Source of the DNA: Acidovorax sp. Leaf160
GTDB taxonomy: Bacteria > Pseudomonadota > Gammaproteobacteria > Burkholderiales > Burkholderiaceae_C
Direction of reading: 5' to 3'
Assembly (NCBI RefSeq): GCF_001424265.1
Contig: NZ_LMOV01000026.1
Location: 62,001-126,000, forward strand
DNA: 64,000 nucleotides
Shown here: positions 23,679-36,944 of the stretch, one piece after another
Layout of the letters: each line of letters opens with the position of its first letter
Numbering within the stretch: position 1 is the first letter of the stretch
Notes under the pieces: generated by a model
Database searches by the model: none
What the model was told of the DNA's origin: nothing
Seen by the model: the letters and a program-made list of their open reading frames with translations, nothing else
Position numbers and translations under genes: made by a program

Positions 23679-24638
23679 ATGCAAAGCCCTTACAACCTCA
23701 ATTCGGTGATGTCACGCCTGCATGCCCGGCAGCTGCGGCTGCTGATCGCCGTGGCCGAGCACGGCTCGCTGCTGGCGGCGGCGGACCACGTGGGGCTGAC
23801 GCAACCTGGTGCCAGCAAGGCGCTCAAGGAGCTGGAAGCCACGCTGAACGCGCCGCTCTTCACGCGCACCAACCGCGGCCTGGTGCCCACGGAGGCCGGA
23901 ACCTGCGCGGTGCGCTTCGCGCGGCTGATCCAGTCCGACATCAGCCACCTGCAACAGGAGCTGAGCGCGATCGCCAGCGGCGCGGGCGGCCGCATCGCGG
24001 TGGGCACCATCATGGGCGCGGTGCCGCTGCTCACGCGGGCGGTGTCGCAGCTGCTGGATCAGCAGCCCGACCTCTCGGTCGAGATCGTGGAGGACACCAG
24101 CGCCAGCCTGCTGGCGCTCATCGACCAGGGGCGGCTGGACGCGGCGATCTGCCGCTCCTCCGTCAGCCCCAAGCCCCATCTGTACGACTCCATCGTGATC
24201 AAGGACGAATCCCTGGCCGTGGTCGCGCACCGGGCGCACCCGGCGGCGGGCCTGCCGTCGATCACGCTGCAGGATCTGTCGGCCAGCCGCTGGGTGATGT
24301 ACCGTGCCCACATGCCTATGCGCCGCACGCTGGAGCGCGAGTTCTTCGAAGAGAACCTGTTTTTTCCCACGCACCTGATCGAAACGACTTCCGCGCTCGC
24401 CACGCTCTCGCTGCTGAGCCACAACGCCAATCTGGTGGCCCTGGTGTCCGACGACGTGGCCGACTATGTCTGCCAGCACGGCATGGTCGCCCGGCTGCCG
24501 CTGCAGCTCAAATCGCGCAGCGAACCCTATGAGTTGATCGCGCGGCGCAATGCGCACCGCCATCCGGCGCTGGCGCTGCTGATCGATGCGTTGCTGGCGT
24601 TGCGCCCGCCCGCCGAAGAAGCCTTTGTGCCCGCGTGA
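23679..24638 (+). CDS. LysR-family transcriptional regulator
   Basis: A 319-residue regulator. The DNA-binding part (about 10-75) reads [18 protein letters not shown], then [17 protein letters not shown] and [13 protein letters not shown], as in the GbpR/galactose-binding-protein regulator branch. The effector domain (about 100-305) has [15 protein letters not shown] and [20 protein letters not shown]. It is divergent from the iron alcohol dehydrogenase and the semialdehyde dehydrogenase, which it probably controls in response to a sugar acid or similar metabolite. The ATG at 23679 has AAGG close upstream; an in-frame ATG at 23709 would also keep the whole helix-turn-helix. Confidence 0.86.
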
Positions 24639-24664
24639 GCCGCCGCGGTTCTTACAATTCGCCG

Positions 24665-25729
24665 ATGCATCCGATCACCTACACCCGCGCCCAGCAACTC
24701 CCCGCCATCCTGGCCGAACGCATCGCCATCCTCGACGGCGCGATGGGCACCATGATCCAGCGCTTCAAGCTGGGCGAGGCGCAGTACCGGGGCGAGGGCT
24801 ACAGCGGCCCGGACGGCGCGGGCGACCGGTTCAAGGACTTTGCGCGCGACGTGAAGGGCAATAACGAACTGCTCTCGCTCACCCGGCCGGACGTGATCCG
24901 CGACATCCACGAACGCTACCTGGCGGCCGGCGCCGACCTGATCGAGACCAACACCTTCGGCGCGACCACCATCGCGCAGGAGGACTACCACATGGCCGAT
25001 CTGGCGCGCGAGATGAACCTGCAGTCCGCCCGGCTGGCCCGCGCCGCGTGCGACAAATATTCCACGCCGGACAAGCCCCGTTTCGTGGCCGGCGCCCTGG
25101 GCCCCACACCCAAGACGGCGAGCATCAGCCCCGACGTGAACGACCCGGGCGCGCGCAACGTCGATTTCGAGCAACTGCGCGCCGCCTATTACGAGCAGAC
25201 CGAAGCACTGGTCGAAGGCGGCGCGGACGTGCTGCTGGTCGAAACCATCTTCGACACGCTCAATGCCAAGGCCGCGCTCTTCGCCATCGACGAGTTTTTC
25301 GAGCAGAGCGGCGAACGCCTGCCGCTCATCATCAGCGGCACCGTCACCGACGCCTCGGGACGCATCCTGTCGGGCCAGACCGTGACGGCCTTCTGGCACA
25401 GCGTGCGGCACTCGCGGCCGCTGGCCATCGGCCTCAATTGCGCCCTGGGTGCCACGCTGATGCGCCCCTACATCCAGGAGCTGAACCGGGTGGCGGAAGA
25501 CACCTTCATCAGCTGCTACCCCAACGCCGGCCTGCCCAACCCGATGAGCGACACCGGCTTCGACGAGACGCCCGAGGTCACCAGCCGGCTTGTCCACGAA
25601 TTCGCCGCCGAGGGCCTGGTGAACATCGTGGGCGGCTGCTGCGGCACTACGCCGGACCACATCGCCGCCATCGGCCGCGCCGTGGCGCCCGTGCCCGCGC
25701 GCCGGCTTTTCTACCCGGAAGCCGCCTGA
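24665..25729 (+). CDS. Homocysteine S-methyltransferase, N-terminal module of split MetH
   Basis: A 354-residue (beta/alpha)8 barrel equal to the homocysteine-binding module of cobalamin-dependent methionine synthase. It has [15 protein letters not shown] near 22-36, [15 protein letters not shown] near 94-108 and the zinc-binding cysteines Cys259 (GLNCALG) and Cys325/Cys326 (GGCCGTTP). It stops where the methyltetrahydrofolate, cobalamin and reactivation modules would begin in E. coli MetH. Split MetH is common in Burkholderiales; the other part must be elsewhere, as it is not adjacent. The ATG at 24665 is 27 bases after the LysR stop. No cobalamin riboswitch was seen. Confidence 0.9.
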
Positions 25730-25748
25730 CCGGCCACTGAACGCGCCG

Positions 25749-25790
25749 GCTGCGGCTTCCGGTTCGGTCGGCCGGCCGGCCGGCCGCAGC
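25749..25790 (+). terminator. Possible GC-rich terminator stem after the MetH module
   Basis: Perfect 8-base arms GCTGCGGC (25749-25756) and GCCGCAGC (25783-25790) enclose a run of GGCC repeats that can fold on itself. There is no T-run, so termination is uncertain. Confidence 0.4.
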
Positions 25791-25886
25791 GTCGGACAAA
25801 CGCGCTGACCGGGAACGGCGCACTTCCTACTGCCCGCCTTGGCCGGTGGCATTACGATCCGCCGTCTTCCACTTCGGCGGCCTCCC

Positions 25887-27353
25887 GTGCGGTCCTTGCG
25901 CGTTCAACTGTTTCTGTTCTGGGGCTTTCTGCTGGCCGCGTGCGCCCTGGTCGCCGCCGTGATCGTGGTGCTCTACCAGACCGGCTCGGGCGCGCAGGTG
26001 GCGGCCAGCCAGTCCCACGCCACCCGGGCCTGCGAGGACATCGCTACGCGCTATGCCAAGTCGGTGCCGGCGGCAGCGGCCGACACACCCCAGGTCGATC
26101 TGCTGCGCGTGCTGCTGCATGTGGTGCTGCTGGAGGTGCCGCAGGTGGAAGGCGGCGTGTGGCGCGCCAGCAGCGGCATGCTGGCCTATGCCTACCCCAC
26201 TTATGAAGGCAGCAGCGCCAAGGTGGACGTGCCCGCGGCGGAAGAGCCGCTGATCGTGCAGACGGCGCGCGAGGCCGCGGGCGCCGCGCGCCCCACCGTG
26301 AACCTGGTGCGCGGCAGCCGCGAGGTGCTGATCGTCGCCGCCTGCCCGCTTGCGGCGCACCCCGGCACCGCCGTCTGGACCATGACGCGCGCGCATTCCG
26401 GCGCCATCGCCGCGCAGAAAAGCCTGCGCATCGGCATTGCCGTGCTGGCGCTGCTGGTGGTGGCCTCGGGCGCCTGGCTGGGCTGGATGCTGCTGCGCGG
26501 CCTGCGGCAGGTGCGCCAGCTGGAGAGTGCTTTCGCCAACGCCCAGGAAGACACCGTGCCACGGCTGGAGCGCACCGGCATCCGCGAGCTGGACCGCATC
26601 GTCGACGGGTTCAACGGCTACGGCGTGCGTTTGCAGGACGCCCGCGCCCGCCTGAAGGAAGCCATGGCGCAACGCCACCGCGACCTGCGCCTGACCGCGC
26701 TGGGCCGCATGACGGCCTCCGTCGCGCACGAGATCCGCAACCCCATCGCGGCCATGCGGCTGAAGGCCGAGAACGCACTGGCCGCACCCCCCGCCCGCCA
26801 TGCCGACGCCCTGGCCGCCATGGTCACGCAGATCGACCGGCTGGAAGGACTGGTGCAAAGCCTGCTGGCGCTGGTGCAGCCGCTCCACCTGCAACCCCGC
26901 CGCGTGGCGCTGGGCGACTGGCTGCGCGAGCGGCTGGAGACGGCCGGCCCTGCGGCCCAGGCGCGTGGCGTGCGGCTGGCGTGGCACGGCGACGTGTCCG
27001 GCGAGGCCGTCTTCGACCCCGTGCATGCGGCCCGCGCCATCGACAACCTGCTGGACAACGCCGTGCGACATGCCCCGGACGGGGGCGAAGTCGTGCTGTC
27101 GGCCGCGGTGGATGCCGCCCGCTGCTGCTGCACGCTGACAGTGGAGGACGATGGCCCGGGCGTTCCCGAAGCCCTGCGCCCGCAACTGTTCGAGCCCTTC
27201 GCCACCGGCCGCGCCGACGGCAACGGCCTGGGCCTGGCGCTGGCGCGCGAGGTGGCGCTGGCCCATGGCGGCGATCTGCACTACGCGCCCCGCCATGCCG
27301 ACGGCAGCGGCGGCGCCCGTTTCATTTTGGAGCTGCCATGGCGTGCCTCTTAG
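25887..27353 (+). CDS. Membrane sensor histidine kinase (NtrB-like partner of sigma54 regulator)
   Basis: About 488 residues. Membrane segment 1 is at about 7-30, a 150-residue periplasmic sensor region with no recognised fold at 31-180, and membrane segment 2 at 182-202. A HAMP-like linker (203-250) precedes the dimerisation domain with His281 (SVAHEIRNPIAAM). The ATPase domain has IDNLLDNAVRHAPDGG, EDDGPGVPEAL and GNGLGLALAREV. It phosphorylates the response regulator encoded next, whose start overlaps this gene by 16 bases. The GTG at 25887 starts just before membrane segment 1; a TTG at 25839 would add 16 residues. The ribosome site is weak in both cases. Confidence 0.88.
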   Translation: MRSLRVQLFLFWGFLLAACALVAAVIVVLYQTGSGAQVAASQSHATRACEDIATRYAKSVPAAAADTPQVDLLRVLLHVVLLEVPQVEGGVWRASSGMLAYAYPTYEGSSAKVDVPAAEEPLIVQTAREAAGAARPTVNLVRGSREVLIVAACPLAAHPGTAVWTMTRAHSGAIAAQKSLRIGIAVLALLVVASGAWLGWMLLRGLRQVRQLESAFANAQEDTVPRLERTGIRELDRIVDGFNGYGVRLQDARARLKEAMAQRHRDLRLTALGRMTASVAHEIRNPIAAMRLKAENALAAPPARHADALAAMVTQIDRLEGLVQSLLALVQPLHLQPRRVALGDWLRERLETAGPAAQARGVRLAWHGDVSGEAVFDPVHAARAIDNLLDNAVRHAPDGGEVVLSAAVDAARCCCTLTVEDDGPGVPEALRPQLFEPFATGRADGNGLGLALAREVALAHGGDLHYAPRHADGSGGARFILELPWRAS

Positions 27354-28711
27354 TCGTCGACGACGATGCGGCCTTCCGCGATTCGCTGGTCGAAACCCTT
27401 CACAGCCTGGGCCACGAAGTCCATGCCGCGAGCAGCGGCGCCGAGGCCCTGCGCCGGGTGGAAAGCCACCGTTACGGCGCCATCTTCCTGGACCACCGCA
27501 TGCCCGGCATGGACGGGCTGCAGACGCTGGAGGCGCTGGCCGCCCGCGTGGCGCAGCTGCCGCCGGTGCTGGTGCTGACGGCCTATGCCAGCGGCTCGGG
27601 CACCATCGAAGCCATGCGCCTGGGAGCCTTCGACCACCTGACCAAGCCGGTGAGCCGGGCAACGGTGGTGCAGGTGCTGGAACGTGCGCTGCGCTCGCAT
27701 GCCGAGGCCGATGGGTCCGCCGCGCCGGCAGCCGCCCCGGCCGGCGCGGCCGATGACGGCGAGCTGATCGGCATCAGCGAAGCCATGCGCGAGGTGCACA
27801 AGCGCATCGGCCTGGCCGCCGCCAGCGAAGCACCGGTGCTGATCGAAGGCGAGACGGGCACCGGCAAGGAACTGGTGGCCCGGGCCCTGCACCGCCATTC
27901 CCGGCGTGCCCGCCAGCCGTTCGTGGCGCTCAACTGCGCCGCCATCCCGAAGGAGCTGCTGGAAAGCGAACTCTTCGGCCATGTGAAGGGCGCCTTCACC
28001 GGGGCGGTGGCCGACCGGCCCGGGTGCTTCCGGGCAGCCGACGGCGGCGTGCTGCTGCTCGACGAGATCGGCGACATGGCGCTGGACGTGCAGGCCAAGC
28101 TGCTGCGGGCGCTGCAGGAAGGCGAGGTCACGCCGCTGGGCAGCCACCGGCCGGTGCGGGTGGACGTGCGCGTGCTGGCCGCCACCCACCGCGACCTGGC
28201 CGCCGCCGTGCGCGACGGACGGTTCCGGGAAGACCTGCGGTTTCGGCTGGACGTGCTGCACATCGTGCTGCCGCCGCTGCGCGAGCGGCTGGCCGACATC
28301 GTGCCGCTGGCCGAGCACTTCCTGCGCCGCGCCGCCGCGCCGCAGACGCCCCAGCGCCTGTCGGCCGACGCGGCCCGCGCGCTGCTGGACCATCCCTGGC
28401 CCGGCAATGTGCGCGAGCTGCGCAACGCCATGGAGCGCTGCCACGCCCTGCACCGCGGGCCGGTGGTGTCCGCCGCCGATCTGGACCTGCGAGACGCTCC
28501 CGCGTTCGCCGAGCCGGCAAGCGGCGGGACGGGCGCCCTGCCCGCGAGCTGGCTGGACGGGTCCCTGCCCGAGGCCGTCGCGCGCCTGGAGCGGCTGATG
28601 CTGGAGCACGCGCTGAAACAGGCCGAGGGCAACCGCTCGCTGGCCGCGCGCCAGCTCGGCATTCATCGCCAGCTGCTCTACAGCAAGCTGACGCAATACG
28701 GGCTGGGCTGA
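27338..28711 (+). CDS. Sigma54-dependent response regulator (NtrC family)
   Basis: A 457-residue activator. The receiver domain (1-120) has the acidic pocket Asp8-Asp10, phosphorylated Asp52 (FLDHRMPG), Thr81 and Lys103. The AAA+ domain (about 143-375) has Walker A GETGTGKE (171-178), the sigma54-contacting loop GAFTGA (218-223) and Walker B LLLDEIGD (239-246). A Fis-type helix-turn-helix ends the protein (NRSLAARQLGIHRQLLYSKL). All elements for activating sigma54 RNA polymerase are intact. A matching -24/-12 promoter lies 195 bases downstream of its stop, ahead of 28960, so that operon is the likely target. The gene overlaps the kinase by 16 bases. Confidence 0.93.
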   Translation: MACLLVVDDDAAFRDSLVETLHSLGHEVHAASSGAEALRRVESHRYGAIFLDHRMPGMDGLQTLEALAARVAQLPPVLVLTAYASGSGTIEAMRLGAFDHLTKPVSRATVVQVLERALRSHAEADGSAAPAAAPAGAADDGELIGISEAMREVHKRIGLAAASEAPVLIEGETGTGKELVARALHRHSRRARQPFVALNCAAIPKELLESELFGHVKGAFTGAVADRPGCFRAADGGVLLLDEIGDMALDVQAKLLRALQEGEVTPLGSHRPVRVDVRVLAATHRDLAAAVRDGRFREDLRFRLDVLHIVLPPLRERLADIVPLAEHFLRRAAAPQTPQRLSADAARALLDHPWPGNVRELRNAMERCHALHRGPVVSAADLDLRDAPAFAEPASGGTGALPASWLDGSLPEAVARLERLMLEHALKQAEGNRSLAARQLGIHRQLLYSKLTQYGLG

Positions 28712-28905
28712 GGAGCAGAAGAACAAGAAGGCTAAGAAGGAGAAGAAGGAGTGGGCATGCTGGCATATCCCCATTCCGCTGCGTCAGGCGTCGCTTTCAC
28801 GGTCACCGCCGGAGGCGTCCGGAAACCAGACAGGCTGTCGCCGTTTCATTCGCAACGCCAGCGCACCGCATTGCGCAAGTGCTTGATTCATAAGGAATTG
28901 ATACC

Positions 28906-28921
28906 TGGCACGGGAATTGAG
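28906..28921 (+). promoter_or_regulatory. Sigma54 (-24/-12) promoter
   Basis: TGGCACGGGAATTGAG matches the TGGCACG-N4-TTGCW consensus at every key base except the -12 C, which is A. Spacing of GG to the -12 element is correct. Transcription would start near 28931, about 30 bases before the ATG at 28960, with GAAGG between. The gene just upstream encodes a sigma54 activator, which strongly supports the call. A dyad GCATTGCGCAAGTGC (28868-28882) upstream may be a protein-binding site. Confidence 0.65.
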
Positions 28922-28959
28922 ACGTCTTCTGCGTCACAACCCTCTGAAGGATGATTGCC

Positions 28960-29679
28960 ATGCAGAAGACTCTTCACCCCCTGGCTCGCGCCGCAGCGCT
29001 GGGCGCCGCCCTGCTGGCCGGCGCAGCCGCCCAGGCCCAGCCCGCCGTGCCGCCCGCCCCCGCCGTGGTCGTGCAGCCCGCGCCGATGGACCAGGCCACC
29101 GTGAGCGGCACCGTGCAGCGCTGGCTGGTCAACCCCAACGGCGAGGCCGACGGCCTGCTGTTGCAGGACGGCACGCAGATCGCCTTCCCACCGCATCTGT
29201 CGGCCACGCTCACGTCGTGGCTGCGGCCGGGCGACAGCGTCCAGGCCACCGGCTGGAACCGCAAGGACATCGGTGTGCTGCGCGCCACCACCCTGCAGTC
29301 GCAAGGCCGCGTGGTGCAGGACACGCCGCCGGCCCCCGGCCAGCGCCCCCTGCCCGCCCCGCGCGAGGCCCTGACCGCACTGCAAGCCGATGGCCGCGTG
29401 GCCCGCGTGCTGTTCAACGGCCGCGGCGACGCGCACGGGCTGCTGCTGGAAGACGGCACGGTGGTGCGCTTTCCGCCGCACAACGGCAGCGCCGTGATGC
29501 CGTTGCTCAAGCCGGGCGCCACCGTGTCGGTGCGGGGCTGGGGCACGCGCAATGCGCTGGGCACCGGCATCGAGGCTGCGCAACTGGGCGCCAACCCCAA
29601 CAGCCTGCAGGACATGCTGGGCGGCCCCGCCGGCGGTCCCGCAGCGGGCCCCGCTGGCGCCCCGCCGCGCCTTCCCTGA
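28960..29679 (+). CDS. Secreted protein with two copies of a small all-beta repeat
   Basis: A 239-residue exported protein that I do not recognise as any named family. The signal peptide is cleaved near residue 26 (GAAAQAQP). Two repeats of about 50 residues occur at 50-99 and 145-194. Each runs from a GxV strand through GLLLxDGT, then an FPPH motif (76-79 and 171-174), then L-x-PG and V-x-x-GW. The pattern suggests small five-strand OB-like barrels. A Pro-rich linker joins them and a Gly/Pro/Ala tail ends the protein. The ATG at 28960 is preferred over one at 28951 because GAAGG lies at 28946-28950. It is the first gene after the sigma54 promoter. The next gene encodes a paralogue without a signal peptide. 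Confidence 0.75.
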   Translation: MQKTLHPLARAAALGAALLAGAAAQAQPAVPPAPAVVVQPAPMDQATVSGTVQRWLVNPNGEADGLLLQDGTQIAFPPHLSATLTSWLRPGDSVQATGWNRKDIGVLRATTLQSQGRVVQDTPPAPGQRPLPAPREALTALQADGRVARVLFNGRGDAHGLLLEDGTVVRFPPHNGSAVMPLLKPGATVSVRGWGTRNALGTGIEAAQLGANPNSLQDMLGGPAGGPAAGPAGAPPRLP

Positions 29680-29745
29680 ACGCCGGGCGCCCTGCCAGGC
29701 AGTCCACCCTGATGAATTCTTGAACCCCATTTCAACGGAACCACC

Positions 29746-30312
29746 ATGAGCAAACCCCAGGAACAAGCCACGGAACGCTGGTCTCTCGAAGGCCGCTTCC
29801 AGCATCTGCTGCACAGCCCGCGCGGCGAAGTCGAAGGCGTGATGATCGACGTGGAGGGCATTCCCGTGCAGTTCGTGTTCGACAAGCACGCCCACGACCC
29901 CGGCACCCGGGCCTTCCAGGCGCTGACGGCCGGCCAGACAGTGGTGGCCGAGGGCACCCTGATGGCGCCGCCACCGAAGGGCGAGGCGCCGCACGAGGTG
30001 TTCGCTTTCGAGCAGCTCGTCTCCATCGACGGCACCGCCTTCACCCCCGACGCGGCGGAACGCGAGGTGCGGGGCCGCGTGGCACGCATCCACCATGCGC
30101 GCCACGGCGAGCCCAACGGCGTGGTGCTGGACACCGGAGACTTCATCCACACCCGCCCCGACGGCTATGCGCAGTGGGGCGCAGGCCTGGAAGTGGGCGC
30201 CGAAGTCACCGCCGCCGGCCCTGCACGCCCGCTGCAAGGCGGCGCCGCGGGCCAGGTGATCGAGGCCCGCACCGTCAACGGCCAGCCGCTGGCCGACAAG
30301 CCAGCACGCTGA
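29746..30312 (+). CDS. Cytosolic paralogue with two diverged beta repeats
   Basis: A 188-residue protein without signal peptide, not assignable to a named family. It carries two repeats of the kind seen in the upstream gene: about 15-71 (GRFQHLLHSPRGEVEGVMID, ending VVAEG) and 109-158 (GRVARIHHARHGEPNGVVLD, ending VTAAGP). The FPPH motif of the secreted paralogue is not kept; the equivalent places read VQFVFDKHA and IHTRPDGYA. The shared order G-x-V, PxGExxG, hydrophobic strand, then V-x-x-G implies descent from a common repeat. It lies 66 bases after the secreted protein and 76 before an MFS transporter on the same strand, so one operon is likely. Confidence 0.7.
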   Translation: MSKPQEQATERWSLEGRFQHLLHSPRGEVEGVMIDVEGIPVQFVFDKHAHDPGTRAFQALTAGQTVVAEGTLMAPPPKGEAPHEVFAFEQLVSIDGTAFTPDAAEREVRGRVARIHHARHGEPNGVVLDTGDFIHTRPDGYAQWGAGLEVGAEVTAAGPARPLQGGAAGQVIEARTVNGQPLADKPAR

Positions 30313-30365
30313 CCCCCAGGACCCCCAGGACCCCCAGGACCCGCAGGACCCCCAGGACCCGCAGG
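30312..30365 (+). repeat. 9-bp tandem repeat, about six copies of ACCCCCAGG
   Basis: Six 9-base units begin at the stop codon of the 29746 gene; two units have G for C in one place. The array ends just before the ribosome site (CACAGGAG) of the MFS gene. Read in frame past the stop it would code Pro-Pro-Gly/Pro-Ala-Gly triplets. Copy number is likely to vary between strains by slippage. Confidence 0.85.
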
Positions 30366-30388
30366 CCCCAGAACCCACAGGAGTCGCC

Positions 30389-31705
30389 ATGGCCACCACC
30401 ACCGCTGCCCGCACCGCCCCCGGCACCCCCGCTGACCCATCCCTTCCAGCCGCCAGGGCGTCGCTGAGCGCCCTGGCGTGGATGGCGTTCTTCATGGCGG
30501 ACGTACGCGACGGCCTGGGGCCGTTCCTGGCGACGCACCTGCAGACCCAGCGCATCGACCAGACCATGATCGGGCTGGTGCTGTCGGCCGGCGGGCTGGC
30601 CGCGATGGCGGCGACGCCCATCGCCGGCGCCTTCGCCGACCGCTCGCGCGCCAAGCGGGCGCTGGTGGCGGTGGCGGCGCTGGTGGTGCTGATTGCCAGC
30701 GCGCTGGCGTTCTCCACCCGCTCTCCGGGCGTGCTGATCCTGTCGCAGGTGCTGACCGGCGTGGCCGGGGCGGTGCTGGCGGCGGCGTTGGCGGCGCTGA
30801 CCCTGGGCCTGGCCCGCAGCAGCGGCCTGCGGCACCAGACGGGCCGCAACGAGGCGTTCAGCCATGCCGGAAACATCGTTTCCGCCCTGGGCGCCGCGGC
30901 CTTCGCCCACTGGCTGGGCGCGCCCTGGATGCTGGTCGTCATGACCGCCATGGCCGTGGGGGCATGGGCCTGCCTGCTGCGCATCCGCCCGGGCGACATC
31001 GACCACGTCGCGGCGCGCGGCGGCGATGCCGATTCGGCCGCGACTGCATCCAACGACCCTCGCTCCGTGGCGCCCGAAGGGCTGCGCGCCTTCCTCGGCC
31101 AGCGTGCGCTCTGGTGCTTCGGGCTGACATGCGCCCTCTTCCACCTGGGCAATGCCGCCATGCTGCCGCTTCTGAACCAGCGCCTGGCGGCCACCGTGCC
31201 CGACTCGTCGCCACTGCTGTGGACCGGTATCGCCATCGTCGTCGCGCAGCTCACCATGGTGCCGGTGGCGCTCTGGGTGTCGCGCAGCCGAAAGTGGGAC
31301 CTGCAGGTCTTCGTCTACATCGCCATCCTGGCATTGCCGGTGCGGGGCGTGATCGCCTGGGCCATTGCCGACTCGTGGGCCAACATCCCGGTGCAGGTGC
31401 TGGACGGCATCGCCGCGGGCGCCATGGGCGTGGTCACCCCGCTGATGGTCGAGCGCTACGTACGCGGCAGCGGTCGCTACAACACCGCCCTGGGCCTGGT
31501 CATGACCATGCAGGGCATGGGCGCCGCCCTGAGCCCCGCCGTCGCGAACACGGTGGTGGGCTCCGGCGGCCACTTCGGCCTGGCCTTCGGCGTGCTGGCG
31601 GGCTGCGCCCTGCTGGCTCTGCCGGTTTTCTGGGCCGCGCAGCGCTCCGCCGGCAACCCGCACGGCACCCCGGCCGGCCAGACGACGCCCGCCGCCCCGG
31701 CTTGA
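30389..31705 (+). CDS. MFS transporter
   Basis: A 438-residue inner-membrane carrier with about 12 hydrophobic segments. The first cytoplasmic loop has the MFS signature in GAFADRSRAKRAL (about 86-98). The sixth-to-seventh segment loop is at 200-235. The N-terminus is Ala/Thr/Pro-rich. The substrate cannot be read from sequence; the subgroup resembles uncharacterised proteobacterial MFS proteins that sit beside periplasmic proteins. It follows the two repeat proteins and is probably in their sigma54-driven operon. CACAGGAG lies just before the ATG at 30389, directly after the 9-base repeat array, which could tune expression. Confidence 0.85.
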   Translation: MATTTAARTAPGTPADPSLPAARASLSALAWMAFFMADVRDGLGPFLATHLQTQRIDQTMIGLVLSAGGLAAMAATPIAGAFADRSRAKRALVAVAALVVLIASALAFSTRSPGVLILSQVLTGVAGAVLAAALAALTLGLARSSGLRHQTGRNEAFSHAGNIVSALGAAAFAHWLGAPWMLVVMTAMAVGAWACLLRIRPGDIDHVAARGGDADSAATASNDPRSVAPEGLRAFLGQRALWCFGLTCALFHLGNAAMLPLLNQRLAATVPDSSPLLWTGIAIVVAQLTMVPVALWVSRSRKWDLQVFVYIAILALPVRGVIAWAIADSWANIPVQVLDGIAAGAMGVVTPLMVERYVRGSGRYNTALGLVMTMQGMGAALSPAVANTVVGSGGHFGLAFGVLAGCALLALPVFWAAQRSAGNPHGTPAGQTTPAAPA

Positions 31706-31821
31706 CGAGGGGCCACCCGCTGCCTGCGGGCGCGGTGCGGATGAGGGGCGATGTGCCTGCGCCACGGCGTGGCTGGCGCTGCGGCGCGCAAGCAGGCACC
31801 ATGCAGGCGGAGGAACCGCCC

Positions 31822-32583
31822 ATGCCCGACCTGCCCGACCTGCCCGACCTGCCCGACCGCCCCGATCCGCACCCCGGCGGCAGCTTGCCCGGCGCCCCTT
31901 GCCGGAAAGCCGCCCCGGCAGCCGCCCACCGCTCCATCCGCCCTGCGGCACGGCGCTGCATGGCGGCAGGTGCCGCCGCCGTGGCGCTGTGGCTTGCCGG
32001 CTGCGCCACCTCGGGCCCGATCACGCCCGAACAGCCCGCCGCCGGCAGCCCCAGCGCGCAAGACGAAGCCCTGCGCGCCCGCTATCCCGCCGACCTGCAG
32101 GCCTGCCGGAGCTACGCCGGCCAGGCCGGTGTGGTGCAGGATACGCTGGACGGCATGGTCGAAGGTGCGCTGGTGGCCGCCGCGCTGGTCTGGGGCCTGG
32201 GCCGCAGCAGCGACGCCGTGCAGGACTGGGCCATCGGCGGCGCGCTGCTGGGGGCAGGCCAGCAGGCGGTCCGATCCGAAGAGCGCCGCCGCCACTGGAT
32301 CGCGGCCTGCATGGCCCAGCGCGGCCATGTGCAGGGCGCCCCATCGCTGGTGCTGGAGCCGCCTGCGCCCGTGCCAGCGCCGCGGCCCTTCACTCCACCA
32401 CGCGCCACGGGGGTGGACACGTTCAACGCGGAGCGGCTGGCGCGGGAGCAGTCGTGCAGCGCTCAGCCGCTCGCCACCCTGGTTGCCAAGGGCCCGGGGT
32501 TCGAGACCTACAGCCTGCCCTGCGCCAACGGCGATGCGCTGGCGGTCCGCTGCGAGTTCGGCAATTGCCGCGTTCTTCGTTGA
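31822..32583 (+). CDS. Putative lipoprotein with glycine-zipper-like core
   Basis: About 253 residues from the ATG at 31822, which has CGGAGG at the right distance. The first 18 residues are a repeated Pro-Asp-Leu tract (9-base DNA repeat). A lipoprotein signal follows at about 47-61 (VALWLAGCATSG, Cys61), so translation may really start at the ATG at 31960, though that has no ribosome site. The mature part has a helical stretch with GALVAAALVWGLG and AIGGALLGAGQQAV (about 105-145), a Pro-rich linker and a Cys-containing C-terminus (SCSAQPL, LPCANGDAL, CEFGNCRVLR) that may form disulfides. The family was not recognised. It lies 116 bases after the MFS stop. Confidence 0.65.
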   Translation: MPDLPDLPDLPDRPDPHPGGSLPGAPCRKAAPAAAHRSIRPAARRCMAAGAAAVALWLAGCATSGPITPEQPAAGSPSAQDEALRARYPADLQACRSYAGQAGVVQDTLDGMVEGALVAAALVWGLGRSSDAVQDWAIGGALLGAGQQAVRSEERRRHWIAACMAQRGHVQGAPSLVLEPPAPVPAPRPFTPPRATGVDTFNAERLAREQSCSAQPLATLVAKGPGFETYSLPCANGDALAVRCEFGNCRVLR

Positions 32584-32709
32584 CGGGCGCGCACCCCATC
32601 AGCCCGGTTTGAGCGCAATCCGCCGGTCCGTCCACGTTTCCTGCGGTGGCGACGCGCAGCCTGACGCGCAGGCCCGGGTGTTGCGCGGTCGGCACGGCAG
32701 CCGGCTCCA

Positions 32710-33033
32710 TCAAGCCAGCTGCAGGTACACCAGGCCCTGCTCGATGCGCACGGGGTAGGTGCGCAGGCCCTGCGTGAGCGGCGCGCACAGCGCGCTGCCG
32801 TCGCGCACGTCGAAGCGGCCCTGGTGCAGCGGGCACTCGATCTCGTGCCCTTCCAGAAAGCCGTCGCACAGCCGCGCGTTGCCGTGGGTGCAGAGGTTGT
32901 CGGTGGCGAACACCTCGCCTTCCACCGAGTAGAGCGCCACGTCGCGCCCGCCGACGGTCACGCCCACCACGTCGTCTTCGGGCACCTCGTCCAGCGCGGC
33001 GGCTTCGGTCCATGGGGTATCGATGGCTGTCAT
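32710..33033 (-). CDS. nagAb: Rieske-type ferredoxin of salicylate 5-hydroxylase
   Basis: A 107-residue [2Fe-2S] electron carrier. The Rieske ligands are Cys48-x-His50 (NLCTHG) and Cys67-x-x-His70 (ECPLHQG). It would pass electrons from the reductase (nagAa product) to the oxygenase. It is the last of four minus-strand genes in the order reductase, large subunit, small subunit, ferredoxin. This order matches nagAaGHAb of naphthalene degraders such as Ralstonia sp. U2. It starts 16 bases after the small-subunit stop. Confidence 0.88.
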
Positions 33034-33049
33034 GGCGTGGGTCCTCGGA

Positions 33050-33577
33050 TCAGATGGGGTAGATGATGGAATTCAGGATCATTTCGCTGTCGTAGATGCA
33101 TTCCTTGCGGGCGAAGCGCAGCCCGCCCGGCGTGCGCACCACCACGTCGAGGTAGCGGCCCACGTTGAACACCGTGGAGGGCTCCGACAGCTTGGTGCGG
33201 AACACGGCGTAGTTCGCCTCGCACTCCCAGCGGCCCTCGCCGGCCGCGCGCACACGCGGCGCGCCGATCACATGGCGCTGGTAGTAGGGGTCGTGGAACA
33301 GCGTCTCGCGGATGCCGTAGACGCGGTCCTTCAGCATGCCCTGGCTGTCGAACGAGAGCGTGGCGAGCGGCAGGCCGCGCTCATGGTTCTCGCGCGGCTG
33401 CAGGCGGTAGACGCAGTCTTCGGTGAAGAAGCCCGGCCAGCGGTCCCAGTCGGCGGCGTCCAGCGCCGAGGCGTAGTCGGCGTAGAGCTGCTGCAGCGCG
33501 AAGAAATCGGAGAAATCGATGGCGGGCGTGCCGGCGGTGCCGGCCGCGATGGTGGTGTTCGTGGCGATCGTGTCCAT
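33050..33577 (-). CDS. nagH: Salicylate 5-hydroxylase, small oxygenase subunit
   Basis: A 175-residue beta subunit of a Rieske oxygenase, with the SnoaL/NTF2-like fold. Conserved pieces are [20 protein letters not shown] near 29-48, [15 protein letters not shown] near 50-64, and LHDPYYQRH-like [10 protein letters not shown] near 94. The beta subunit is structural and forms the alpha3beta3 hexamer. It starts four bases after the nagG stop. Function is taken from the clear match of the large subunit and the gene order. Confidence 0.87.
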
Positions 33578-33581
33578 GGCC

Positions 33582-34862
33582 TCAGTCCTCCTTCTCCATC
33601 ACGCCGCGCCAGTATTCGTACATGCCGCGGATCAGCGTCTCGGTCACCATGTGGTCGGTGTCGCCCACCCCGTGGCCGCCCAGTTCCACCAGCGCGCGGT
33701 GGAAGGGCTTCTGCTCGAAGCCCTGCTGCGAGAACTCGATCACCTCGCCGTCGTCGGCCGACACGAAGCCCGCCGGGCCGAACAGGTTGGACTGGCGCAG
33801 GCGCCGCTCGGTCATCTCGTCGGTATCGTCCTCGTAGCCGAAATGCGTCCACACGAAATCGAAGGCGTCGTGGCCCACGGGCTGGATGTGGCGCGTGGAG
33901 ACGCTGTTGACCTGCTGCTGCAGGATCACGCTGGGGAACAGCGTGGTCATCACCGCCGTCGGCCCGCCCCACCAGGGCTCGGGCACGATGTCGAGAAAGC
34001 GCGGGTCTTCCAGCTGCATGCCGGCCTTGAAGCTGGAGACGTTGGACACGTCCGACGCCTGCTTCTTGGCCTCGCCGCGCGTGGACACCATGGCCGCATG
34101 GCGGTGGCGCGCGTCCATCTTCAGCTCGGACTTGTTGTCCGCCCGCCAGAGGCCGAAGGTGACGAACCAGGTGTGCAGCAGGCCGGGGTGGTACGGGTCC
34201 TTGATGTTCTCCTGCATCAGCTTCCAGTTGCCCGGAATGCGCTGGCGGTTGTAGCCGAGGATCTTCAGCTGGCGGCCGTTGAACATGCGGTCGAAATAGC
34301 CCAGGATCACCGGGCCCATGAAGTCCTCCAGCGATTCCACGTCGTGGTCGAACGAGGCGAACACCACGCCACCGCGCACGGCCACCTTGAGCCGCGTGAG
34401 GCTGTGCTCCTCCAGCTTGAAATCCGCCGGCATGCCGCCGTGCACCTTGCCGTCCTGCTTCACGCCGCGCCGGAACGGCACGCCCTGCAGCGCGCCGTCG
34501 AGCTTGTAGTTCCACTGGTGGTAGGGGCAGACGAACTCCTTGCGGTTGCCGTGCCGCTCGCGGCAAAAGCGCATGCCGCGGTGCGCGCAGACGTTCTCCA
34601 CCACGTGCAGCTGCATGTCCTCGCCGCGCGTGAGAATCACCGAGCGCTCGCCGATCGCCGTGCGCTTGAAGTCACCGGGGTTCGGTACCTCGGCCTCCAG
34701 GCCCACGTAGCACCAGTGGGCGCGGTAGAAGAAGCGCTCCAGCTCCCGCTGGTACACCGACTCGCTGGTGTAGGCGGCGAAGGGCACCCGGTGCGTGCCC
34801 GGGCCCTCCCATGTCGGGTGCAGCGGGAAGATGGCGGGGGTGGCGTGGGGTGTCGTACTCAT
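33582..34862 (-). CDS. nagG: Salicylate 5-hydroxylase, large oxygenase subunit
   Basis: A 426-residue catalytic subunit. The Rieske cluster is bound by Cys92/His94 (VCAHRGMRFC) and Cys112/His115 (VCPYHQW). The mononuclear iron site follows in QENIKDPYHPGLLHTW, with the Asp bridging residue and two His ligands near 220-228. The sequence closely resembles, from memory, NagG of Ralstonia sp. U2 across its length, including GVPFRRGVKQDGKV and QQQVNSVSTRHIQP. It hydroxylates salicylate at C5 to gentisate. The ATG at 34862 has AAGGAGAC upstream. Related oxygenases (anthranilate, terephthalate) cannot be fully excluded without alignment. Confidence 0.85.
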   Translation of the reverse strand: MSTTPHATPAIFPLHPTWEGPGTHRVPFAAYTSESVYQRELERFFYRAHWCYVGLEAEVPNPGDFKRTAIGERSVILTRGEDMQLHVVENVCAHRGMRFCRERHGNRKEFVCPYHQWNYKLDGALQGVPFRRGVKQDGKVHGGMPADFKLEEHSLTRLKVAVRGGVVFASFDHDVESLEDFMGPVILGYFDRMFNGRQLKILGYNRQRIPGNWKLMQENIKDPYHPGLLHTWFVTFGLWRADNKSELKMDARHRHAAMVSTRGEAKKQASDVSNVSSFKAGMQLEDPRFLDIVPEPWWGGPTAVMTTLFPSVILQQQVNSVSTRHIQPVGHDAFDFVWTHFGYEDDTDEMTERRLRQSNLFGPAGFVSADDGEVIEFSQQGFEQKPFHRALVELGGHGVGDTDHMVTETLIRGMYEYWRGVMEKED

Positions 34863-34925
34863 GTCGCTGTCTCCTTGAGAATTTTTCTTGGGCTGACGAA
34901 AGGAAGCGGGCCGTGGCACACGGGT

Positions 34926-35921
34926 TCAGGGGGTGCTGGCGTAGAAGGCGTCCGCGTACAGGTGTTCGGGCGCGATGCCGCGCTGGCGGGCGAGCAGCGA
35001 CACGGCCTCCACCATCGGCGGCGATCCGCACAGGTAGGCGCGCCAGCCTTCCAGCGAAGGCCAGTCCTGCGCGATGGCGTCGGTGACCAGGCCCGCGCGC
35101 TGGCCCGGCGCGGCGTCGACCGCGGCCACCACGGCATGCACCTGCAACTTCGGATGCCGCTCCTGCAGCGCGGCGAGCCACTGCAGGCCATAGACGTCGC
35201 GCACAGACCGCGCACCGGCATAGACGTGGATCGGATTGGGCATGCCCGCCTCCAGCGCGCCGCGCACGATGGACAGGATCGGCGCCAGCCCCGTGCCGCC
35301 CGCCACGCAGAGCATCGGGCCTTCGTACTTGCGGCGCAGGTAGGCCGAACCCAGTGGCCCGCTCACGCGCACTGCATCGCCCACCGCCAGCACGCTGGCG
35401 ACGTGGGTGGAGACCAGCCCGCCTTCGACCAGACGCACGTGGAATTCGAGTGCGTCGTCGTGCGGCAGCCCGGCCATCGAATAGGGACGCACCAGGCCCG
35501 GGCCGAACTGCAATTGCGCGTACTGCCCCGGCGAGAAGTCCAGCGGCTTGGCCGGCTTCAGAAGCAGGCGGCGGATGTCGTGCGTGAGCGTTTCCACGGC
35601 CGTCACCGTGGCCTTGAGCGTGCGGGCGGTGTGCACCACCACCTCGTCGGGCTCGGGGATCTCGATGGTGCAGGACTCGCTCAGCACCGTCTGGCAGGCC
35701 ATCACGTACTGCGCCTCGCCCTCGCCCCCCAGCGGCGGCATGCGCAGCGCCTGGCCGGAATCCAGCACCTCGCCCGCGACCACCTTGCAGCGGCAGGTGC
35801 CACAGCGGCCGGCCATGCAGCTGTACGACACGGGGATCAGGTGCGTGCGGAGCACTTCCAGCAGGTTGGCGCCGGGCTCCACGGGCAGGACGCGGCCCAG
35901 CGGCTCGATATGCAACTCCAT
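34926..35921 (-). CDS. nagAa: Ferredoxin reductase of salicylate 5-hydroxylase
   Basis: A 331-residue flavoprotein reductase. The N-terminal plant-type ferredoxin domain has Cys35, Cys40, Cys43 and Cys76 ([12 protein letters not shown] and MACQ). The FAD domain has RPYSMAGLP near 170 and the NAD domain [20 protein letters not shown] near 230-249, with CGSPPMVEA near the end. It resembles NahAa/NagAa reductases along its whole length. It draws electrons from NADH for the ferredoxin and oxygenase. It is the first gene of the minus-strand operon; GGAGA precedes the ATG at 35921. A NahR-type site and a promoter lie between it and nagR. Confidence 0.9.
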
Positions 35922-35955
35922 CGGGGACTGTCTCCAGGTTTTCGTTATGGCCCCG

Positions 35956-35984
35956 ATCATTCCTGCGATCCACCCATCAGCCAA
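35956..35984 (-). promoter_or_regulatory. Predicted nagAa operon promoter
   Basis: On the minus strand TTGGCT (35984-35979) and AATGAT (35961-35956) are separated by 17 bases. Each matches the sigma70 consensus at four of six positions, as is usual for an activated promoter. The NagR site lies about 25 bases upstream of the -35, the normal place for LysR activators. Confidence 0.5.
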
Positions 35985-36006
35985 TAGAATGGCATGAATA
36001 CATCGC

Positions 36007-36020
36007 ATCACTCGGATGAA
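36007..36020 (-). promoter_or_regulatory. NahR/NagR operator, TTCA-N6-TGAT
   Basis: Read on the minus strand the bases TTCATCCGAGTGAT match the TTCA-N6-TGAT motif described for NahR and NagR. The site lies in the 111-base gap between nagAa and nagR, upstream of the predicted nagAa promoter. Salicylate-bound NagR would activate nagAaGHAb from here and could also affect its own gene. Confidence 0.7.
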
Positions 36021-36032
36021 TAAAGGTGCAGC

Positions 36033-36944
36033 GTGGAACTGGAAGACATCGACCTGAACCTGCTGGTGGTGTTCCAGCAGCTGCTGGTCACCCGCAAGGT
36101 GTCGCAGGCGGCCGAGAACCTGAGCCTCACGCAGCCGGCGGTGAGCAACGCCCTCGCGCGGCTGCGGCGCCTGCTGGGCGACGAGCTGTTCCTGCGCACG
36201 GCGCACGGCATGCAGCCCACGCCCTACGCCGACCAGCTCGCGGAATCGGTGTCGTACGCGCTCGCCATGATCCACGGCGCGCTGAACCACAAGCTGGGGT
36301 TCGACCCCGCCACCAGCCGGCGCGTGTTCAAGGTGGGCATGACGGACATCGGCGAGATCTACTTCCTGCCGCGCCTGCTGGAGCGCCTGGCCCAGGTGGC
36401 GCCCGGCGTGCGGCTGACCACCGTGCGCAATTCAGCGACCGATCTGAAGGACGCCATGGAGGCCGGCAAGGTGGACCTCGCCGCAGGCCTGCTGCCGCAA
36501 TTGAAGGCCGGCTTCTTCCAGCGCCGGCTTTTCCGCCAGCCCTATGTGTGCCTTTTCCGCCAGGGCCACCCGCTGCACAAGCGCCGCCGCATCGGGCTGG
36601 AGGATTTCGCGAAGGCGCAGCACGTGGTGGTCGTCTCCGAAGGCACGGGCCACGGCAAGGTGGACGAACTGCTCGAACGCATGGGCGTGGCCCGCGACGT
36701 GCGCCTCACCGTCCCGCATTTCGTCGCAATCGGCCACATCCTGCAGGCCACCCAGATGGTCGCCACCGTGCCCGAGAAGATGGCCCAGAGCATGGCCGAG
36801 CCCTTCGGGCTGGCGTATGCGCCCCACCCCGCCAAACTGCCGCAGGTGGCGATCAACCTGTTCTGGCACACCAAGTACCACCGGGATCCGGGGAACCAGT
36901 GGCTGCGGGGGCTGATAGTGGAGATGTTCGCGGAGAGCGACTGA
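36033..36944 (+). CDS. nagR: LysR-family regulator of the NahR/NagR type
   Basis: A 303-residue activator. The DNA-binding domain begins [20 protein letters not shown] and continues [15 protein letters not shown] and [14 protein letters not shown]. The effector domain has [19 protein letters not shown] near 97-115, [17 protein letters not shown] near 160 and [18 protein letters not shown] near 205, all characteristic of NahR, NagR and DntR, which respond to salicylate. It is divergent from nagAaGHAb with the operator between them. NahR itself is a sigma70-type activator. Start ATG versus GTG: the codon at 36033 is GTG, seven bases after AAAGGTG-type sequence. Confidence 0.9.

Follow-up and report, generated by a model that had tools for sequence, protein, structure and literature searches.

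A candidate two-component/sigma54 cassette of Acidovorax sp. Leaf160 with tandem OB-fold proteins and a carrier, predicted to act in a periplasm-sensing response

A locus of Acidovorax sp. Leaf160 encodes a sensor kinase, an NtrC-type regulator, two repeat proteins and a transporter one behind the other, which raises the question of whether these genes form one regulated unit and what it might serve. The window, that is, the whole stretch analysed, comprises 64,000 nucleotides (contig NZ_LMOV01000026.1, positions 62,001 to 126,000 of the forward strand), and the positions below are counted within it. The exported and the presumed cytosolic repeat proteins are named R2s and R2c, the kinase HK and the regulator RR, while L-numbers (L005, L060 and so on) label the individual loci compared. 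The obtained results showed that the five genes are real and that the cassette is, as judged by comparing sequences, a unit recurring across the family while its flanks are essentially genus-specific. It is most likely a dedicated periplasm-sensing response and probably serves the export or buffering of a harmful small molecule. The full proposal, a self-contained two-component/sigma54 cassette with periplasmic sensing, in which oligonucleotide/oligosaccharide-binding (OB) fold proteins and a carrier act as protection, has in our judgement an even chance of being correct.

The five genes were located on the forward strand where the first-pass annotation had placed them, and their coordinates, their domains, the repeats of R2s and the paralogy of R2c were confirmed (Table 1). 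The start of RR overlaps the end of HK by 16 bases. In the kinase, HisKA and HATPase_c domains (Pfam) follow the sensor region, and no Pfam domain over the cut-off was found in the sensor part itself. The regulator had been described as an intact NtrC-type activator, and this held: Walker A (GETGTGKE), GAFTGA, Walker B (LLLDEIGD) and a Fis-type helix-turn-helix (HTH) were read from its sequence, and PF00072, PF00158 and PF02954, the domains of an NtrC-type (group I) protein, all exceeded the Pfam cut-off. The gene rpoN is present in the window's genome. An eye search for a transport-direction motif in the major facilitator superfamily (MFS) protein found none.

The window belongs to the Comamonadaceae, judged by named relatives, and the family comparison covered 40 other loci and the window (41 in total), all picked for encoding R2s relatives. 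R2s was present in 17 of 17 genomes of the genus, the window's own included. Among 399 family genomes it was detected in 30 at E<=1e-3, of which 23 reached 1e-30 or better, and the R2s profile was matched in 7 of 399 genomes of the order sample and 9 of 398 of the phylum sample. A lack of co-occurrence between the regulator and the repeat genes had been named beforehand as refuting the proposal; HK and RR were found upstream of R2s, on the same strand and within ~3.3 kb, in 37 of the 40 other family loci (38 of 41 with the window), and a search starting from the regulator detected RR at E<=1e-150 in 7 of 120 family genomes, all seven R2s-positive.

The five-gene order, which the first-pass annotation had suggested looking for in other genomes, occurred directly as HK-RR-R2s-R2c-MFS in 21 of the 41 loci, including the window and L060, whose MFS gene lacks its middle. 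Seven loci carry a CitMHS-type carrier between RR and R2s (L011, L076, L079-L083; further genes also in L079), two have the order HK-RR-R2s-MFS-carrier-R2c (L012, L084) and six read HK-RR-R2s-MFS without an intact R2c (L065, L072, L075, L085-L087), L075 having a carrier between RR and R2s and only a remnant of R2c. The target genes are present in L005 with the regulator on another contig; L088 and L089 keep HK, RR and R2s, the last as a fragment in L089, where a carrier is also present; and in L090 and L091 a single-repeat relative stands without the cassette. The MFS proteins of L005, L012, L072 and L084-L087 are just 36-45% identical to that of the window. The regulator of L087 reads in two frames, by natural damage or sequencing error. 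Outside the genus, the window's flanking metH-type and dioxygenase-type genes were not found beside the cassette, apart from a weak LysR match in L077.

The region ahead of R2s was compared in 38 family loci and 10 loci outside the family, which are related to one another, so that the counts are not independent. The -24/-12 site taken at each locus was the best one 25-110 bases upstream of the start codon; its GG and its position are therefore partly a product of that choice, whereas the positions of the dyad and of the integration host factor (IHF) site are not. Loci L089-L091 were left out of this comparison, and L101 and L118 out of the dyad and IHF count, their automatic start codons being misplaced; L071, with a start codon misplaced downstream, is absent from the shuffle test and counted in the dyad, IHF and -12 tallies. 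A GTC-N9-GAC dyad lies 86-92 bases upstream of -24 in every one of the 38 family loci and in 9 of the 10 others. A second copy, ~22 bases nearer the promoter, was seen in 4 of 38 and 8 of 10, respectively. The exact IHF consensus, as in the site predicted in the window, stood near -30 in 35 of these 38. Sampling 19,200 random points within the loci compared gave a background of 0.27% for the dyad and 0.01% for the IHF match. In L101, read by hand, the dyad stands at -68, with none at -92 to -86, and the IHF consensus is matched at -30; L118, read likewise, showed two dyads and TTGGCACGGGTATTGCGG. The persistence of the dyad across classes is a stronger point than the counts among related loci.

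Within the promoter element, exact TGGCACG was kept in 34 of the 38 family loci, TTG at the -12 half in 32 and G at -13 in all 38. Counted to the start codon used, the distance of the -12 base is 31-44 bases in 31 of them and 51-88 bases in the remaining seven, several of whose starts are doubtful. The -12 dinucleotide is GC in 5, GA in 26 and GG in 7 family loci, and GC in 10 of 10 loci outside the family. Of the features by which a sigma54 promoter is recognised (GG at -24, GC at -12 and the spacing), the window has the GG and the spacing and lacks the GC, and the fixed-distance dyad fits an upstream enhancer site. The -24/-12 element reported by the first-pass annotation is present, with GA at -12. 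What makes it convincing is the conserved position together with the dyad and the IHF-type site; its score was not used as an argument, given the shuffle result reported below. By its footprint, the element appears to work like a sigma54-dependent promoter. In the shuffle test of other loci, the best site lay elsewhere in, for example, L058 and L061, and the score was unremarkable in, for example, L012, L078, L080-L083 and L118. In the same genome, a site upstream of a pilin gene (TGGCATGCAACCTGCT, with no comparison against chance) carries GC at -12, which hints that the sigma54 of this organism still reads GC elsewhere. A clear -24/-12 site was not found directly upstream of the P-II gene used as a control (L135, L136). 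No sigma70-type match was found in 25600-32700 against 0.2 expected, which says little.

Table 1. Positions of the cassette genes and of the predicted control elements in the window
Feature	Position	Strand	Remarks
Sensor histidine kinase (HK)	25887..27353	+	GTG start; TTG 25839 also in frame, start uncertain
NtrC-type response regulator (RR)	27338..28711	+	Receiver, sigma54 AAA+ with GAFTGA, Fis-type HTH
Enhancer-like dyad CGTCCGGAAACCAGACA (GTC-N9-GAC)	28816..28832		Predicted RR site, 89 bases upstream of -24
TGTC half-site	28836..28839	+	Where some other loci have a complete second dyad (~ -68)
Predicted IHF site CAAGTGCTTGATT (YAANNNNTTGATW)	28876..28888	+	30 bases upstream of the -24 element
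-24/-12 sigma54-type promoter TGGCACGGGAATTGAG	28906..28921	+	-12 GA versus GC; expected +1 near 28932
R2s	28960..29679	+	Two OB-fold repeats, signal-peptide-like N terminus (sequence reading); alternative start ATG 28951
R2c	29746..30312	+	R2s paralogue, two OB-fold repeats; signal peptide not evident, presumably cytosolic
MFS transporter	30389..31705	+	Last gene of the cassette

Matches to R2s occurred in 20 plasmid records, nine of which were examined. Caballeronia M1242 has the order HK-RR-R2s-R2c-like-metallophosphoesterase-MFS-'arsenic transporter'-DMT, Bradyrhizobium a shorter version, and Methylocystis, Paraburkholderia and Caballeronia SBC2 rearranged versions. Acidiphilium has HK-RR-R2s only and Methylocapsa R2s alone, and two records without usable annotation gave HK-RR-R2s-R2c-like-MFS-carrier by profile search. 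R2c itself matched one plasmid record, from Variovorax, with no cassette around it. A lone R2s-like gene stands beside ATP-synthase F0-type genes (sequence reading) in three low-GC genomes (L110, L111, L112), where no kinase or regulator was found in the stretch. The other carriers accompanying the cassette are of CitMHS and YdcZ-exporter type (Pfam); the Variovorax-type and Caballeronia-type carriers both match CitMHS, yet do not match each other at E<=1e-15, and the L075 carrier gave a match to CitMHS but none to ArsB.

A dyad with a -24/-12-like site was observed before a separate CitMHS-type carrier in L011, L075, L076, L080-L083 and L089, before an MFS operon in Methylocystis (L115) and before a divergent phosphoesterase-carrier operon in Caballeronia SBC2 (L121). 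Given that dyads precede separately placed transporter genes in some species, the link between regulator and carrier exceeds gene order. Weakness is common among these second sites: the -12 half reads TCGA in L011, L075, L076 and L089, the -24 half reads GGGCACG in L080-L083, and the site of L083 is not the best-scoring one. No dyad was found in the carrier-side region of L079, nor any exact IHF match in the carrier-side regions scanned (L121 lay outside the scan). A promoter-plus-dyad pattern matched the R2s promoter in 17 of 17 genus genomes and gave five other matches in total, the control pattern giving three; each of the five differs in sequence, and only the R2s promoter is recurrent. 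In the window's genome the pattern search returned nine matches (control, two), one being the R2s promoter and one lying beside a GlrR-like gene. A GACA/IHF-like/TGGCA arrangement was seen in this genome (L123, 1487-1660) between the GlrR-like regulator gene and a glucan-synthesis glycosyltransferase gene, the latter identified by sequence reading, and one perfect consensus site lies elsewhere in it (L138). The dyad, the IHF-type site, the off-consensus -12 and the other carrier classes are additions to the first-pass annotation.

The two internal repeats of R2s are identical at 24 of 54 residues, and R2c is its paralogue (hhalign probability 98.5, E 3e-15). No Pfam or NCBIfam model reached its cut-off for either protein. 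Structure prediction, which the first-pass annotation had recommended, yielded tandem OB folds in both, with mean pLDDT (predicted local distance difference test) values of 85 for R2s and 89 for R2c, so by prediction both belong to the OB-fold superfamily, with the five-stranded barrel occurring twice. In these models, the first repeat of R2s (43-117) was superposed on 7f5y_B (Z 9.6, root-mean-square deviation 2.8 A, 75 aligned) and that of R2c (7-97) on 4gla_C (Z 10.2, 2.7 A, 87 aligned). The second repeats, barely covered by the fold search, are assigned by similarity of sequence and by their predicted strands. SSB, PriB and the OB domains of aminoacyl-tRNA synthetases are the closest among solved folds, and a predicted fold shared with these does not show nucleic-acid binding. 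Sequence matches of A1 and A2 in the PDB were not convincing (best E 0.0018 and 0.067). Membership of DUF5666 was rejected: against a cut-off of 27 bits, the only trace was 20.8 bits in one distant R2s (L113), and none of 23 aligned members gave a hit to the model at E<=0.01. The profile search, in which no direct comparison was made, returned no Pfam match of the repeat proteins to BOF (YgiW-type).

The kinase has two hydrophobic segments around a region of ~150 residues, a topology read from sequence, and within this sensor region lie Cys-49 (codon at 26031) and Cys-153 (codon at 26343). Both cysteines are invariant in 22 of 22 compared kinases. EGG-W was kept in 20 of the 22 and the motif AYA-PTY-G-K-D-P-AE was recognisable in the same 20, with one substitution each in L103, L118 and L119; L109 and L114 keep both cysteines and lack EGG-W and the motif. 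No MFS gene was found by profile in L109 and L114; L102 and L103 have the motif, yet no MFS gene. Periplasmic sensing, as the first-pass annotation had it, fits such a region, and its conservation suggests one class of signal. The cysteine pair may take part in sensing or may merely hold the fold.

We propose that the kinase would sense a periplasmic condition or small molecule through this conserved domain, and that the regulator, once phosphorylated, would bind TGTCCG-N5-CGGACA-type dyads ~90 bases upstream of the -24/-12 promoter. IHF would bend the DNA between dyad and promoter, and sigma54 RNA polymerase would transcribe R2s, R2c and the MFS carrier. Of the two tandem OB-fold proteins, one would bind the ligand in the periplasm and the other a ligand of that kind in the cytosol, and the MFS protein would move it across the inner membrane, most likely outwards, as protection. 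The regulatory part of this scheme is well supported; the cargo and the direction of transport are inferred. Protection by buffering and export is favoured given that different carriers occur with the same regulator and OB proteins, one of them from the YdcZ exporter family.

Several observations weigh against this interpretation. The -24/-12 score of the window is not significant alone: when the sequence was shuffled with its dinucleotides kept, 11 of 100 shuffles reached it. Among the 38 family loci, 33, one of them the window's, have no C at -12, and 6 have lost the T in front of TG. Outside the family, a single locus of the 10 showed the exact IHF consensus. Ten of the 40 other family loci, namely L065, L072, L075 and L085-L091, yielded no intact R2c, L075 keeping a remnant of it, and an MFS of the window's kind was not found in L088-L091. 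This remnant, the incomplete MFS gene of L060 and that of L072, which reads in pieces, are due to natural damage or sequencing error. Such losses imply that no downstream part is strictly required. The Caballeronia carrier scored 155.9 bits for CitMHS versus 112.2 for ArsB. Known NtrC-type two-component systems often control nutrient uptake or use.

This last point leads to the rival that survives best, although we regard it as rather unlikely: an uptake system under the same regulation, in which an external organic acid or aromatic compound is sensed, the MFS (elsewhere the CitMHS-type carrier) imports it and the exported OB protein captures it. CitMHS is indeed the best Pfam match of the extra carrier, the Caballeronia neighbours are annotated as aromatic-degradation genes and the window's neighbours look alike (sequence reading), and MifSR, also a sigma54-linked two-component system, is reported to serve alpha-ketoglutarate utilization (PMC4482717). 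However, the dioxygenase-type and other flanks stay behind outside the genus, as described, the same regulator accompanies different carrier classes, no recurring catabolic enzyme was noticed (one flank set compared), and one partner carrier matches an exporter family.

A redox or envelope-damage response, in which the sensor cysteines would report oxidant or disulfide stress and the OB proteins would be envelope chaperones, is unlikely. The cysteines persist even in the two kinases without the rest of the signature, and SipA, a single-OB periplasmic protein, is reported to act in stress survival (PMC6370654); however, the pair may be a plain structural disulfide, the AYA-PTY-G-K-D-P-AE motif suggests a ligand pocket, and the cytosolic paralogue R2c would be left unexplained. 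That the -24/-12 element has decayed in the window's lineage and that a different promoter drives the genes is highly improbable, since the loss of -12 GC, the shuffle result and the GC-bearing pilin site are outweighed by TGGCACG, the -13 G, the dyad and the IHF-type site, all kept across genera at the counts given above.

The protective reading can be widened, tentatively and below an even chance, to a hitherto undescribed response class of alpha- and betaproteobacteria: a cysteine-pair sensor, a paired periplasmic and cytosolic tandem-OB buffer for a toxicant or metabolite, and exchangeable exporters (MFS, CitMHS-type, YdcZ-type) within the same dyad-controlled regulon. The regulon can be defined from sequence alone, with sensor, regulator, DNA site, promoter and targets, and the cassette recurs whole or partly in Comamonadaceae, Burkholderiaceae, Bradyrhizobium, Methylocystis and Acidiphilium. 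For two protein families that Pfam does not cover, this provides a context and a first hypothesis, and the loci, which carry an IHF-type site, form a natural series in which the -12 C of a sigma54-type promoter has disappeared.

The surroundings of the cassette were also inspected. Directly upstream, at 24635-25729, a MetH-type domain (homocysteine methyltransferase, sequence reading) forms a separate open reading frame, and such a gene adjoins the cassette in 16 of 16 other genus loci. A Rieske-type aromatic dioxygenase gene set (sequence reading) occupies 32710-36290 on the - strand; of the 16 other genus loci, 14 have the alpha-subunit-like gene of this set next to the cassette. A tandem array of GACCCCCAG (8.2 copies, 30311-30382) stands directly upstream of the MFS start codon and could influence MFS translation, and a second 9-base array, TGCCCGACC (4.6 copies, 31823-31862), lies downstream of the MFS gene. 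No structured RNA reached the gathering threshold in 24000-34000.

The first-pass annotation could link the cassette to no described system, and a literature search reaching few subscription papers likewise found no published description. ZraSR is a sigma54 two-component system inducing a periplasmic protein, ZraP. Among NCBIfam models, the cassette kinase is matched best by AtoS and ZraS; ZraP differs from R2s in that an OB fold is predicted for R2s. Orthology to ZraS and ZraR was rejected (121.9 and 360.8 bits against NCBIfam cut-offs of 479 and 760), as was orthology to AtoC, the regulator scoring below the NCBIfam cut-off. A likeness to ars operons arises from three Caballeronia/Paraburkholderia stretches with a gene annotated 'arsenic transporter', and the one checked exceeded the Pfam ArsB cut-off. 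An arsenic operon is not supported: the carrier matches CitMHS better, the best NCBIfam ArsB score was 173.3 against 457 bits, and no ArsR or ArsC is annotated in the three stretches, whose gene tables may be incomplete.

Among OB-fold proteins, YgiW, YdeI and SipA resemble R2s in being periplasmic and under a two-component system; SipA is reported to be a single-OB protein that binds antimicrobial peptides and aids stress survival (PMC6370654). The cassette differs in its two OB repeats, its cytosolic paralogue, its sigma54-type control and its lack of a Pfam family, and SipA may be seen as a functional analogue of R2s, relatedness aside. The closest regulatory parallel is GlrKR (QseEF), which is reported to combine an NtrC-type regulator with a sigma54 promoter preceded by TGTC-N10-GACA sites and by putative IHF sites (PMC8745638). 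Both systems share the regulator class, the dyads and the IHF-type sites before a sigma54-type promoter, whereas the spacer is N10 there and N9 in the cassette, whose predicted targets are OB proteins and carriers, not glmY. The regulator is not a GlrR (QseF) orthologue (353.9 bits versus the NCBIfam equivalog cut-off of 763), and a second, GlrR-like regulator in the window's genome scored 606.4 bits, also below 763, and is 41% identical to RR. By our literature search, the sensor, the OB family and the content of the regulon are undescribed, while the regulatory logic is of a known kind, for which GlrKR is the comparison.

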